Source of the DNA: Natronomonas pharaonis DSM 2160
Lineage (GTDB): Archaea; Halobacteriota; Halobacteria; Halobacteriales; Haloarculaceae
DNA length: 64,000 nucleotides
Direction of reading: 5' to 3'
NCBI RefSeq assembly: GCF_000026045.1
Contig: NC_007426.1
Location: forward strand, 310,001 to 374,000
A model generated the notes under the pieces. That model did not search any database. It was given only the letters and a program-made list of their open reading frames with translations, and was not told the origin of the DNA. This document shows positions 18,605 to 26,257 of the stretch, one piece after another (the first letter of the stretch is position 1; every line of letters starts with the position of its first letter). Both the position numbers and the translations under genes were made by a program.

Positions 18605-18619
18605 ACCCGACTAGTTCGG
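18605..18619 (-). promoter_or_regulatory. bop-type UAS (Bat-response element) of hop
   Basis: The + strand reads ACCCGACTAGTTCGG, a full match to the Halobacterium bop UAS consensus ACCcnactagTTnGG. Its core ACTAGT is centred about 50 nt upstream of the hop ATG. The interval contains no strong TATA box, as in the bop promoter. Bat is encoded 5 kb away. That it acts on hop here is inference. Confidence 0.75.
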
Positions 18620-18955
18620 CATTGCCGGCCAACCGGGCGCAGTATGGCGGGTCGAACCCCTCAGCCAGCCCGAAAAGCGGCATACGGTCCGCAGCAAAGT
18701 GACATGCTCCTCAATATTCCGATACGTAAAGAAATAAAATATGTATATAACGCTTTTCACCCGGAAGGTGTGTACGAGTACCAAACTTGTTTGGTCGTAC
18801 GGTTATGCTTGTGACGGCCTAACGCAAAACCGTGAAGAATATCCTGCGGCTGCCATCCTCCGACGCGTTGAGCCGTCGATGCGGTCAACCGCAGCCGTTG
18901 ACATCGGCGCGGTACGGCCGGACAAACAGCCCCGTACCGACGTCTACCGTCTGAT
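18620..18955. other. hop/permease intergenic region, rest of the 393-nt gap
   Basis: No gene is seen in 18563-18955. Besides the UAS, it holds an AT-rich segment (18712-18752) with a TATA-like TATATAAC (18743-18750) on the + strand, and then an inverted repeat at 18772-18800. If that TATA box drives the permease, its mRNA has a leader of about 185 nt. Confidence 0.5.
18772..18800 (+). promoter_or_regulatory. 29-nt inverted repeat, possible operator or 5'UTR hairpin
   Basis: ACCAAAC-TT-GTTTGGT (18780-18795) is perfect and is flanked by GTACGA and TCGTAC as an outer pair. It lies 20-50 nt downstream of a TATA-like box and about 155 nt before the permease start. It may be a repressor site overlapping the transcription start, or a hairpin in the mRNA leader. 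Confidence 0.5.
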
Positions 18956-21331
18956 ATGCCGACGGATTTGAAACGTGACCTCGGACTGCCGGAGACGACC
19001 GCCATCGCTATCGGCGCGATGGTCGGCAGCGGCATCTTCATCCTCCCCGGCATCGCATATCTCGAAGCCGGCGGCCCGTCCGTCGTCGCCGCGTTTCTGG
19101 TTGCCGCCGTTCTCATCGTTCCGGCGGCGCTTTCGGCCTCGGAGATGGCGACGGCGATGCCCGAAGACGGCGGCTCGTACGTCTACGTCGAGCGCGGGAT
19201 GGGGCCGCTCTTGGGCACTATCGCCGGCCTCGGAAACTGGTTCATGCTGTCGTTCAAGGGCGCACTCGCGCTCGTTGGCGGGGTGCCGTATCTCGTCTAT
19301 GTCGCTCCCGCGATAGCCGACGCAACGGTCCCGATTGTTGGCGACCCGGTAATCGCACTCGCGCTGGCGATTGCGACCGGGTTCATCGTGCTGAATCTCG
19401 TCAGCACGTCGAGTACCGGACGGCTGCAGTTCTTCATCGTCGGCGTGATGGTCGTGGTGATGGGTGCGTTCGTTCTTCTCGGCGGTCGCCACGTCGACCC
19501 GGCACAGACGGACGGACTGACGGCAGTCGGTGAAGGGAACTTCCTCGCGGCGACAGCGCTCGTCTTCATCTCGTATGCTGGCGTTATCAAGATAGCCGCC
19601 GTCGCCGAGGAAGTCAAAGACCCCGGCCGAGTCATCCCGCAGGCGATGCTCGGGTCGCTGCTTGTTACTACCCTTCTCTATGTGCTGGTGGTCTACGTCG
19701 CTATCGGTATCGTCGATGTCGATGCCGCCATCGGACAGGGACTGCTCGCAGCCGACGGGGAAGGCGCTATCATGGCCATCGCCGCCGACCAGGCAATCGG
19801 GACCGTCGGCGTCATCGCCGTCACCGTGGCTGCGCTTTTGGCGTTGGCCTCGACGGCGAACGCCGGCCTGCTTTCGGCCTCGCGGTTTCCCTTCGCGATG
19901 GCTCGCGATGACCTCGCCCCCTCGGCGTTTGCGACGGTTAGCGAACGGTTCGGGACACCGGTGTTGGCCGTTGCGACGACCGGCGCGGTGATGCTGGTTA
20001 TGATTGCGTATCTCCCAATCGACCAGGTGGCGAAGCTGGGCAGTGCCTTCCAGATTCTCGTCTTCATACTCGTCAATCTCGCCTTAGTCGGGTTTCGCGA
20101 AGGCGCTCTCGAAGAGTACAACCCGGAGTTCGTCTCCCCGTTGTACCCGTGGATGCAGCTTTTCGGCATGGCCAGCGGCTTCGTCGTGCTCACACAGATC
20201 GGATTGTTTCCCTTCGCCGCCGCGGTGGCTGTGACTGGCGTTTCGGTCGTCTACTACTACGCCTATGCCCGGCACCGAGTCGACCGTGAGGGGGCCGCCC
20301 GGACCGGCGTCCGAAAGGAGGTCGGCGACCGCGCCATCGAGCGGACCGAGGAACTCTTCGCCGACGACCGAACATACGACGCGCTCGTGGCTATCACCGA
20401 CGAAACAAGCGAGCCCGGTGCGCGTGATATGCTCCGGGTCGCGGCCGACCTCTCCCGGCTCGGCTCGACGCACGTTTCGGCGGTCCGGTTCAGCGAAACC
20501 CCACAGCACGTTTTCGGCGGTCACGCCCCCGATGTCGCACAAGCCGACGACCCTGACTGGCTCCCCTTCGATGAGCGCCCCGAATGGCTCGCCGCGGCGA
20601 CTCGGGCCGGCGGCGGCCCCGAACAGAGCAGTATCACGGCCGGGAGCCTCCCACAGACTGACACGGCTACCGAAGCAACGCTCGAAGCGGCGGCCGGCAC
20701 GGCGGTCGACTACCGTGAGGTGACCGCTGAGAATGTCAGGCAGGCAGTCGTCGATTTCGCCACGTTCGAGGGCTACGACCTGCTGCTCTTGGAACGACGC
20801 CGCGAGGATTTCCACCGGCGGCTGTTCGGCGTCGGCGACACCGAGTGGTTCCTCAGAAACGCACCCTGTGGGGTGTTGCTCGTCGAGGACCGTGGCTTCG
20901 ACGGCGCAGATGAAATTGCCGTCGTCGCTTCCCGTGGGGCGTACGACCCGCTGAAGCTGCTCGTCGCCGACGCCATCGCTGAGGAAACCGGCGCGCGGAT
21001 AACGCTGCTGCAGGCCGTACCCGAAGCCGCCCCCGAACAGCGGCGGGAGGCAATCGAGGATTACCACGCCGCGCTCATCTCGATACTGACAGTGCCAGCC
21101 CAGTCCCGAGTTATCGAGGCCGACGACCGGGTTGCGGGGCTGGCACGGTTCGCCGAGCCGGCTGACCTGCTCGTGACGGGGACGGAGGCCCGCGGCTTTG
21201 GTGGGGAGCTACTCGGCCGACCGGACGACCGGTTGGTCGATAGCGTCGACTGTACGGCCGTGATGGTTCAGCCGGAAAGCGAGCGACGGGTCGGGTTCCT
21301 CAAGCGGGCGGTGCTCGACAGGCTGTTTTAA
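18956..21331 (+). CDS. APC-family amino-acid permease with C-terminal universal-stress domains
   Basis: 791 residues. Residues 1-435 are an APC/CAT-type transporter of about 12 helices; IGAMVGSGIFILPG in helix 1 is the substrate-binding signature and GVIKIAAVAEEVKDPGRVIP is the conserved central loop. Two UspA-like domains follow (about 465-630 and 645-775: YDALVAITDE... and DEIAVVASRG...ADLLVTGTEARGFGGELLG), probably cytoplasmic nucleotide-binding regulators of transport. A cationic or other amino acid is the likely substrate. It is divergent from hop, and its stop overlaps the stop of the SRPBCC gene. Confidence 0.92.
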   Translation: MPTDLKRDLGLPETTAIAIGAMVGSGIFILPGIAYLEAGGPSVVAAFLVAAVLIVPAALSASEMATAMPEDGGSYVYVERGMGPLLGTIAGLGNWFMLSFKGALALVGGVPYLVYVAPAIADATVPIVGDPVIALALAIATGFIVLNLVSTSSTGRLQFFIVGVMVVVMGAFVLLGGRHVDPAQTDGLTAVGEGNFLAATALVFISYAGVIKIAAVAEEVKDPGRVIPQAMLGSLLVTTLLYVLVVYVAIGIVDVDAAIGQGLLAADGEGAIMAIAADQAIGTVGVIAVTVAALLALASTANAGLLSASRFPFAMARDDLAPSAFATVSERFGTPVLAVATTGAVMLVMIAYLPIDQVAKLGSAFQILVFILVNLALVGFREGALEEYNPEFVSPLYPWMQLFGMASGFVVLTQIGLFPFAAAVAVTGVSVVYYYAYARHRVDREGAARTGVRKEVGDRAIERTEELFADDRTYDALVAITDETSEPGARDMLRVAADLSRLGSTHVSAVRFSETPQHVFGGHAPDVAQADDPDWLPFDERPEWLAAATRAGGGPEQSSITAGSLPQTDTATEATLEAAAGTAVDYREVTAENVRQAVVDFATFEGYDLLLLERRREDFHRRLFGVGDTEWFLRNAPCGVLLVEDRGFDGADEIAVVASRGAYDPLKLLVADAIAEETGARITLLQAVPEAAPEQRREAIEDYHAALISILTVPAQSRVIEADDRVAGLARFAEPADLLVTGTEARGFGGELLGRPDDRLVDSVDCTAVMVQPESERRVGFLKRAVLDRLF

Positions 21332-23667: not shown

Positions 23668-23741
23668 CGGCTCAGGGTGTGCTCAGGCGCCGTCGGTTGC
23701 GGTGTCGGCCGTGGTGTCCGGACCCGCTGTAGAACGTGCAT
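23664..23741 (-). CDS. Possible 25-residue upstream ORF of crtY
   Basis: ATG at 23741 opens 25 codons (MHVLQRVRTPRPTPQPT...), and the TGA stop overlaps the crtY ATG as ATGA. The UAS core is 44 nt upstream of this ATG, close to the 50-nt UAS-to-ATG spacing at hop. The mRNA may therefore begin here and crtY may be read by termination-reinitiation. No conservation can be checked here. Confidence 0.3.
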   Translation of the reverse strand: MHVLQRVRTPRPTPQPTAPEHTLSR

Positions 23742-23777
23742 GGTTGGTATTTCTCGCCGAGCACCTAAAGCGGTCGC

Positions 23778-23792
23778 ACCAAACTAGTTGGG
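23778..23792 (-). promoter_or_regulatory. bop-type UAS (Bat-response element) of crtY-brp
   Basis: The + strand reads ACCAAACTAGTTGGG, matching ACCnnactagTTnGG, in the same orientation to its gene as the copy upstream of hop. The ACTAGT core contains the TAG stop codon of bat, so the site overlaps the 3' end of bat and is the only promoter-proximal element before crtY. Confidence 0.72.
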
Positions 23793-25829
23793 GCCACGGT
23801 CTTGGTCACCGACATCGTCCAGCTCTGTCAGCAGCGCACCGACGAGCTTCGACTCCGCCGCCCGCAGGTGCTGGTGAAGCGTCGAGCGCGAGATATCCAT
23901 CGATTCAGCGATATCGTCCCCGGAAACAGGGCGTGGCCACTCGAAGTAGTCGCTGAGGTACGCCCGGCGGAGCGTCTCAAGCTGTCTGTCGGTGAGCGAC
24001 TCACGGAGCGACCCGATGAGGCCATCGCCGTGGGCGTCCGTCTGGGTGTGTCGCTGTGACCGCAGCGAAAGCCCGCTACATCGCTCCTGCAGTGACTCGA
24101 CGAGCGGGTTGGGCGCGGCATCGGGGGGTAGCTCCACGCGGAGTTCGAGCCGGTCGCTGTTGGCCGTGTACGCCTGCACAGCCCCGTTGTGGTCGAGTAC
24201 CAGTCGAACCAACGAGTCGTCACAGAGCAGTGCCTCGACGAGACAGCCGTCGTCGTGGCTGGCGATTTCGCGAACCTGCTCGACGCCGTCGACGCTGTCG
24301 GCCGCTGCCGAGAGCGCTTCCGCATCGCTGTCGCCGATCAGCGCCGAGACGACGAGTTCACCGTCGTTGGCGATTATTCCCCGGTAGGTGATGTCGGCTT
24401 CCGCCTCGGCAGCCAGTTCGGCCAATCCCGGCCCGGGTGGCTCGCCGGCGAACGCAAGCTCAAGCCGCTCGTCGGTCGTCAGAAGCCGGTGGTTCTGGAG
24501 CGCGTTGAGTCCCGTAGCGGCGACGCGGCCGAGCGCCTCCAAAACTGCCTGCTCGTGTTCGTCGACGGTCTGTGACTCCGCGGCATAAACGACCAACACA
24601 CCGTAGTTCGCTTCGCGGTACTGGAGCGGGACCGCTGCTACGGCCCCGTTTGGACCCACGAACCGCCGATGTACTGATGTCGACTCCAGCGACGTCGCTT
24701 CGGCGACGGCGACGCCCCCGGAGTCGAGCGCCGTCGCCGCCGGCCCCTCTTGAGCGAGGTCAACGGCGACCGCATCGGCCGCGCCACATCCGGCTCGGCA
24801 GTCGGCGACAAGCCGGCCGCTTGTCGCTTCCTTGGACCCAATCCATGCGGCGTCGTAGTCGCCGGTATCGACGACGGCCTGGCACACTCGCTGCCGCAGT
24901 GCCGTGGCGTCGGTGCTCTCGACTGTCGCCTCCGTGACTCGACGGACGAGTCCGTCGATGCGGGCGAGCAAGCGCTGTCGCTTTCGTCTGTCGGCCCGAA
25001 GCTGCTCGGCCTGCCGTTGGGCCCGAAGTTCGACCTCTTTGCGCTCTGTAATATCTGTTTGGAACCCCACGAGATGGGTGACGCGTCCGTCGTCGTCCCG
25101 TATCGGTGCGATGTTGAGCTGATTCCAGAACGGCTCGCCGTCCTTCCGGTAGTTGAGCAACTCGACCGAGACCGGCCGACGGTCGTCGACGGCTTGCCGG
25201 ATAGTAGCGACCGCCTCGGGGTTGGTGTCTTCGCCCTGCAGGAACCGACAGTTCCGCCCCAGCACCTCGTGTCTCTCGTAGCCGGTCAGTCGCTCGAACG
25301 CCTCATTGATGTAGACGAGCGGCTCGTCTTCTTCGTGTGGGTCGGCGACGACGACGCCGACCGGCGCTTCATCGAGCGTTCGCTTCGAGAGCTGCAGGTC
25401 AGCGGCCATCGGGTCGTCGGTATCCATCGTCGCCGCGACGTGGTTCCGTCGCGCCTCCTCGACGACCCGTTCTGCGAGCCGTTCCGTGTCGTCACCGGTT
25501 CGAGGGATGTACGCCGCCGCACCAGCGTCGATGGCGGCGCTGGCGACTGCCTCGTCGCCGGCCGCCGTGTAGACGATGCCCGGCGGCCGGTCAGTCCGCT
25601 CACCGAGTTGTTCGAGCAGTTCGATTGCGTCACCGTCGGGCAGGTCGTGGTCGGTGACAACACAATCAATGCCGCCCTCCGCAACGCGTGACAGTGCTGC
25701 CGCCATCCCGCTAACGGCCGTCGGCTCGACGAGCGGTTCGGGAAGCGCCGCCCGCACGTCCCCAGCGGCTGGCGCGTCCCCGACGAGCAGCACGTCGAAC
25801 GAGAGCGTTACGTCGCTTTCGCGGGTCAT
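23784..25829 (-). CDS. bat: Bat-type transcription activator: receiver-LOV-GAF-HTH_10
   Basis: 681 residues. Order: receiver (1-125, phosphoacceptor Asp60 in VVTDHDLPDG), LOV-type PAS (150-262), GAF (285-445), bacterio-opsin-activator domain (450-600), and HTH_10 (about 612-668, LTDRQLETLRRAYLSDYFEWPRP...ISRSTLHQHLRAAESKL). The PAS carries the LOV flavin set: GRNCRFLQ with Cys194, Asn226 and Asn236 in LLNYRKDGEPFWN, and Gln257 in GFQTDIT, so blue-light sensing through FMN is likely. Halobacterium Bat activates bop, brp and crtB1. The start overlaps the usp stop as ATGA. Confidence 0.94.
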   Translation of the reverse strand: MTRESDVTLSFDVLLVGDAPAAGDVRAALPEPLVEPTAVSGMAAALSRVAEGGIDCVVTDHDLPDGDAIELLEQLGERTDRPPGIVYTAAGDEAVASAAIDAGAAAYIPRTGDDTERLAERVVEEARRNHVAATMDTDDPMAADLQLSKRTLDEAPVGVVVADPHEEDEPLVYINEAFERLTGYERHEVLGRNCRFLQGEDTNPEAVATIRQAVDDRRPVSVELLNYRKDGEPFWNQLNIAPIRDDDGRVTHLVGFQTDITERKEVELRAQRQAEQLRADRRKRQRLLARIDGLVRRVTEATVESTDATALRQRVCQAVVDTGDYDAAWIGSKEATSGRLVADCRAGCGAADAVAVDLAQEGPAATALDSGGVAVAEATSLESTSVHRRFVGPNGAVAAVPLQYREANYGVLVVYAAESQTVDEHEQAVLEALGRVAATGLNALQNHRLLTTDERLELAFAGEPPGPGLAELAAEAEADITYRGIIANDGELVVSALIGDSDAEALSAAADSVDGVEQVREIASHDDGCLVEALLCDDSLVRLVLDHNGAVQAYTANSDRLELRVELPPDAAPNPLVESLQERCSGLSLRSQRHTQTDAHGDGLIGSLRESLTDRQLETLRRAYLSDYFEWPRPVSGDDIAESMDISRSTLHQHLRAAESKLVGALLTELDDVGDQDRGPN

Positions 25830-26257
25830 TCGTCTGCGACGACGACGACCGGAGCCGTCCCGGACGACTCGAGCAACTGCTCTGCGGTACTGCCGAGAAC
25901 GAGCCGCTTGAATCCCGAGCGGCCGGTCGCGCCGACGACGACAAGGTCGGCTCCGACGCGCTCGGCAACCTCCAGAACCTGCTCCGGCGGCACCCCCTCC
26001 TCGACGGTTGTCTCACAGGAGACGTCCTCGGCCGCGGCGACCGCTGCCGCCGCCTCGACGGCCTCGACGGCGTCGGCACGGAGGTTTTCCTTGACCTCCT
26101 CGGGGTCGATAATCGCGTTGTCGTATGCCGTTCGGGTTTCGACGACGGAGACCACGTGGAGGCTTGCACCGGTCGCCGCGGCCACCTCGACGGCGTGGTC
26201 GAGCGCGGCTCGTGAGTCCTCGCTGCCGTCGGTCGCGAGGAGGATAGTGCTATACAT
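25826..26257 (-). CDS. Universal stress protein (UspA family), co-transcribed with bat
   Basis: 143 residues with the ATP-binding UspA pattern: ILLATDGSEDSRAALDHAV at the N-terminus, and ADLVVVGATGRSGFKRLVLGSTAEQLL (G-2x-G-9x-G) near residues 105-135. Its TGA overlaps the bat ATG, so the pair is translationally coupled. That links an ATP-sensing stress protein with the light/redox regulator. A TATA box lies 28 nt before its ATG. Confidence 0.93.
   Translation of the reverse strand: MYSTILLATDGSEDSRAALDHAVEVAAATGASLHVVSVVETRTAYDNAIIDPEEVKENLRADAVEAVEAAAAVAAAEDVSCETTVEEGVPPEQVLEVAERVGADLVVVGATGRSGFKRLVLGSTAEQLLESSGTAPVVVVADE

Follow-up and report, generated by a model that had tools for sequence, protein, structure and literature searches.

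A predicted Bat operator containing the bat stop codon, and a candidate leader ORF ahead of crtY, in Natronomonas pharaonis

The stop codon of bat in Natronomonas pharaonis lies within a palindrome that resembles a Bat operator (UAS) and precedes the genes for retinal synthesis, which raises the question of what this site controls and at which start codon translation of its putative transcript would begin. The stretch of DNA that we analyzed (the window; 64 kb, positions 310001-374000) belongs to the main replicon, the genome comprising three contigs with 2,749,696 bases in total (2.75 Mb), and all coordinates below refer to the window. Its minus strand carries, in this order, bat (25829-23784), crtY (23667-22828), brp (22850-21783), two other genes and hop (18565-17687); the linkage of hop to the bat, crtY and brp genes has been noted earlier (PMC1885257). 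Domain searches described the 681-aa bat product as a regulator with a receiver-like region followed by PAS/LOV, GAF, BAT and HTH_10 domains, crtY as the gene of a two-domain CarR-type lycopene beta-cyclase (TIGR03462), brp, whose start overlaps the crtY end, as that of a beta-carotene 15,15'-dioxygenase (Brp/Blh; PF15461, TIGR03753), and hop as that of halorhodopsin (PF01036). The start of bat itself (25826-25829) forms an ATGA overlap with an upstream universal-stress-protein gene (25826-26257, minus strand); the same junction in three relatives (L033, L051 and L052) is an A/T-rich gap with no ATGA overlap.

The 3' end of bat reads GGC CCC AAC TAG, and ACCAAACTAGTTGGG was confirmed at 23778-23792 with its ACTAGT core at 23783-23788, such that the TAG (23786-23784 in reading direction) falls inside the core; both the UAS match and the overlap had been pointed out in the initial annotation. 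In gene direction, the predicted operator of the retinal operon is the near-palindrome CCCAACTAGTTTGG (23779-23792, minus strand). The strict pattern CCNNACTAGTNNGG occurs at only two places in the whole 2.75-Mb genome, namely at the bat/crtY junction and upstream of hop, where CCGAACTAGTCGGG (18606-18619, minus strand, gene direction) precedes the hop ATG by 50 nt. The two sites are 5.2 kb apart, each at promoter distance, and they account for both ACTAGT hexamers in the window. With ten fixed bases, the naive genome-wide expectation is about 2-3 and becomes lower given the depletion of CTAG; the count of two is unsurprising on its own, and the weight is carried by the joint placement of the sites and their conservation. 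Matches to a loose consensus (up to three mismatches) were not above chance in the window (11 versus 7.7 expected). The predicted targets, an opsin gene (hop) and retinal genes (crtY-brp), are of the type expected for a Bat UAS. A scan of the genome revealed no further strict site and none upstream of bat. The site had been read as the activator's own target, but it is not a promoter site of bat: it lies at the bat 3' end and the genome has no other strict site, which speaks against bat autoregulation. A search of one literature library returned no report of a Natronomonas UAS. Between hop and a divergent amino-acid permease/Usp gene (18956-21331, plus strand), we also observed ACCAAACTTGTTTGGT (18780-18795), a perfect palindrome save for one central pair, with UAS-like arms and a different core; it was not found in three related loci.

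Conservation was examined in the closest relatives that share the bat-crtY-brp-hop order, namely G003 (L033), N. aquatica (L051) and Natronomonas sp. LN261 (L052). All three retain ACTAGT at the end of bat, and two of them (L033 and L052) also have the AC-TAG-T stop. In N. aquatica, bat enters the site in another frame and reads PTSRV through it, the first base of its TGA stop lying 12 nt past that of ACTAGT. Pairwise identity anchored on ACTAGT was 0.87 for the 14-bp UAS and 0.32 for the preceding 56 nt of bat, compared with 0.26 expected by chance, which indicates that the DNA site is constrained rather than the peptide. The Bat tails beyond the HTH differ freely. The comparison of bat 3' ends that had been suggested thus supports a Bat-type UAS pointing at crtY-brp, and the double constraint proposed for the overlap falls mainly on the operator, since the protein end varies and N. 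aquatica reads through the operator. A separate site precedes hop in N. aquatica and LN261, and a one-base variant (CCAACCAGTGTGG) in G003. In LN261, brp (8878-9886 of L052) is seemingly split by a +1 frame change, which may be an assembly error or real.

The consensus of 32 sites from related loci, CCnnACTAGTnnGG(T)(A), is nearly palindromic, and its symmetry is broken only by a weak gene-proximal TA after GG; the site at the bat stop shares its ACTAGT core with CC/GG arms. Because the consensus is a near-perfect palindrome, the identical orientation of the two UAS copies, which had also been remarked on, carries little meaning. From the first base of ACTAGT, it is typically 48-55 nt to an opsin ATG and 46-51 nt to an ATG in loci where crtY comes first, N. 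pharaonis having 47 nt. Across the 32 sites, A+T content rises at -34 to -26 before the ATG, which is where a TATA box would be expected if the transcript had no leader or almost none. TTT at positions +19 to +21 from ACTAGT is invariant in four Natronomonas, and in N. pharaonis a TATA-like TTTA (23766-23769, minus strand) lies just downstream of the UAS, 28-25 nt before the first start codon. A possible antisense promoter directed from the palindrome into bat was considered and dismissed, given that no TATA-like box was seen by eye on that side.

As a control, we used H. salinarum, in which brp is reported to carry a Bat UAS (PMC1447603); the site before this gene has an ACTAGC core and lies 47 nt from the ATG. 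Scanning the H. salinarum genome with the strict pattern gave zero sites, and a scan with two mismatches was swamped by noise. Two further observations concern opsin loci. In H. salinarum DSM 3754, the first part of the contig (L165, 1-120) is foreign-looking, non-bop sequence joined near the start of bop, which may represent an insertion element there, and the assembly does not contain the bop upstream region. In L079, L083, L086, L089, L090, L092 and L100, a common ACTAGT precedes the first aligned opsin residues by just 13 nt, compared with the usual distance of about 50 nt, and may be located within or beside the first opsin codons.

The ATG located 47 nt from ACTAGT in N. pharaonis is not that of crtY. 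It opens an unannotated ORF of 25 codons (23741-23664, minus strand; MHVLQRVRTPRPTPQPTAPEHTLSR), the TGA of which overlaps the crtY start as ATGA. The picture of a UAS upstream of crtY given in the initial annotation is thus correct as far as it goes and incomplete in that it lacks this ORF, and the retinal operon likely starts at 23741 rather than at crtY. ACTAGT precedes a first-position crtY in 12 loci; an ATG follows it at 46-51 nt in nine of them and is missing there in the other three. In seven of these nine (the window, L033, L051, L052, L041, L056 and L071), the first in-frame stop is the ATGA overlap with crtY, and one of the seven ORFs spans 58 codons; in L070 the leader ORF stops just before crtY, and in L035 the ATG is in frame with crtY and merely extends it as a fusion. 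Under a null of one in three frames, seven of nine corresponds to a binomial p of about 0.008, counting four related Natronomonas as independent. Several loci that lack an exact ACTAGT likewise have an ORF running from an ATG to an ATGA overlap in front of crtY. The arrangement, an ATGA overlap of genes in the same direction, is that expected of a termination-reinitiation pair, and in Haloferax such pairs are strictly coupled, with no de novo ribosome start at the second gene (PMC6728339). A conserved leader peptide was rejected on account of sequences that differ among relatives, which suggests that the peptide itself may have no function beyond being a translated leader. A remnant of a lost opsin gene was likewise rejected, as the ORF shows no likeness, judged by eye, to opsin N-termini.

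The regulator that would act at this site belongs to the family expected, with HTH_10 and BAT domains, and its best H. salinarum match (36% identical) is encoded directly after brp, where bat also sits. The PAS region of the N. pharaonis Bat matches blue-light LOV families below the curated cut-offs, and its motif GRNCRFLQ is the adduct-forming LOV cysteine motif. In the H. salinarum homologue (GANHRFLQ), His takes the place of the cysteine, as does Pro in some other Bats; LOV-like domains in Bat proteins, in one case with a proline at this position, have been described (PMC4682037). The N. pharaonis Bat may plausibly sense light.

Based on these findings, we propose a model in which the Bat UAS follows bat so closely that the gene takes its stop codon from the ACTAGT core. 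Bat (PAS/LOV-GAF-HTH_10) would bind the palindrome and bring the basal machinery to the TTTA box, 13 nt downstream. The resulting transcript would begin at or beside the ATG 47 nt from the core and would be leaderless, with the 25-codon ORF as its first cistron. Ribosomes ending at the leader TGA would then reinitiate at the overlapping crtY ATG, and brp would follow. The promoter would demand a start codon at the transcription start, which the leader ORF would supply, while the hop operator would coordinate retinal synthesis with the opsin. We regard this model as probable. Against it stand the three of 12 loci without an ATG at the expected distance, the variable leader peptide and the possibility that bat transcripts continue into crtY, no terminator having been identified.

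The leader ORF is open to another reading. It might be an accident in front of a genuine UAS, with crtY translated from its own start behind a 74-nt 5' UTR and the ORF kept open by GC-rich DNA; the differing peptides of the relatives fit this reading, and given an ATG at this place one in three frames would end at the crtY ATGA anyway. However, the ATG recurs in nine of 12 loci at the very distance seen for opsin start codons, and seven of nine ORFs, including that of 58 codons, end exactly in the overlap, which leaves an accident unlikely, at a minor but appreciable share of our expectation. Another reading would take the palindrome at the stop codon as chance and crtY-brp as the tail of a bat operon. 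The two genes are indeed close and co-directional, degenerate matches stand at chance level in the window, and some long open frames that are unrelated likewise terminate in ACTAGT (20 of 2449). Chance would nevertheless have to account for a site that is conserved in all relatives with the same gene order, in different frames and at a fixed distance from an ATG, and that is rare in the genome with its twin at hop; we consider this highly improbable.

A further alternative concerns the stop overlap, which might itself be regulatory: besides activating crtY-brp, Bat sitting on its own stop codon would exert negative feedback by blocking the elongation or read-through of bat mRNA. The overlap was surveyed in 80 named loci fetched together with a crtY alignment and in loci from a whole-genome search. 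Exact AC-TAG-T overlaps were found in eight loci (the window, L033, L052, L070, L108, L037, L041 and L042), followed by crtY in some and by an opsin gene in others; elsewhere ACTAGT lies 23-247 nt past the bat stop, or an exact site is lacking. On a tree of 36 Bat proteins, in which several branches were long, the overlap requires at least five state changes when N. aquatica is counted together with its relatives, and ancestral presence with repeated loss is indistinguishable from repeated gain. This recurrence ahead of crtY or opsin genes would speak for regulation, yet the many loci in which the UAS follows bat without overlap and the missing exact register in N. aquatica speak against it. 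Moreover, an ORF entering ACTAGT is stopped in one of three frames, so compaction alone can produce the AC-TAG-T register. We therefore hold a regulatory overlap to be improbable. Equally doubtful is the wider notion that the overlap was repeatedly selected as a Bat roadblock on the bat transcript and that the leader ORF sets the amount of lycopene cyclase per transcript; if it were true, one site would both activate the retinal operon and restrict read-through from bat. Two observations concern individual loci. L108 has two ACTAGT (7119 and 7160) 41 nt apart between bat and the opsin gene, one overlapping the bat stop and the other 52 nt from the opsin ATG, which is the usual distance. In the Natronomonas G005 (L047, around 5651), ACTAGT stands just upstream of bat as well as of the opsin gene, which suggests that bat is autoregulated there.

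The preferred model, with its leaderless transcript and leader ORF, would mean that the Bat operator is not confined to bacteriorhodopsin but also serves a two-site halorhodopsin/retinal regulon, in which an operator repeatedly doubles as the stop codon of its activator. The core-to-start spacing of 46-55 nt can be used for finding Bat targets in other genomes. The predicted conserved leader ORF would place the enzyme gene second on a leaderless mRNA, a prediction easily tested with reporters in haloarchaea.

The closest known system is the bop regulon of H. salinarum (bop, brp and crtB1; PMC1447603, PMC1502140), with which the N. pharaonis locus shares a palindromic ACTAG-centered site before a TATA box, opsin and retinal gene targets, a linked Bat regulator and, compared with H. 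salinarum brp, an equal core-to-start distance of 47 nt. In contrast to the bop regulon, the predicted targets in N. pharaonis are hop and crtY-brp, one site overlaps the bat stop, a leader ORF lies between the site and the first enzyme gene, and bat has no strict site upstream and hence no evident positive feedback. The coupled gene pairs of Haloferax volcanii (PMC6728339), likewise from a haloarchaeon, resemble the leader ORF and crtY in their four-nucleotide stop/start overlap and common direction; while their upstream partner is a conserved protein gene, the ORF in this place in N. pharaonis is very short, varies in sequence and lies at a 5' end predicted to be leaderless. Finally, bat-opsin-crtY-brp clusters of other haloarchaea (L037, L042 and L108) show the same AC-TAG-T stop/operator overlap, and L037 and L042 also equal N. 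pharaonis in the spacing from the UAS to the next ATG, whereas L108 differs by its second UAS at the usual spacing. The first cistron of these clusters is the opsin gene, where N. pharaonis has the leader ORF, and, unlike in the clusters, the opsin gene of N. pharaonis (hop) has its own UAS 5 kb away.
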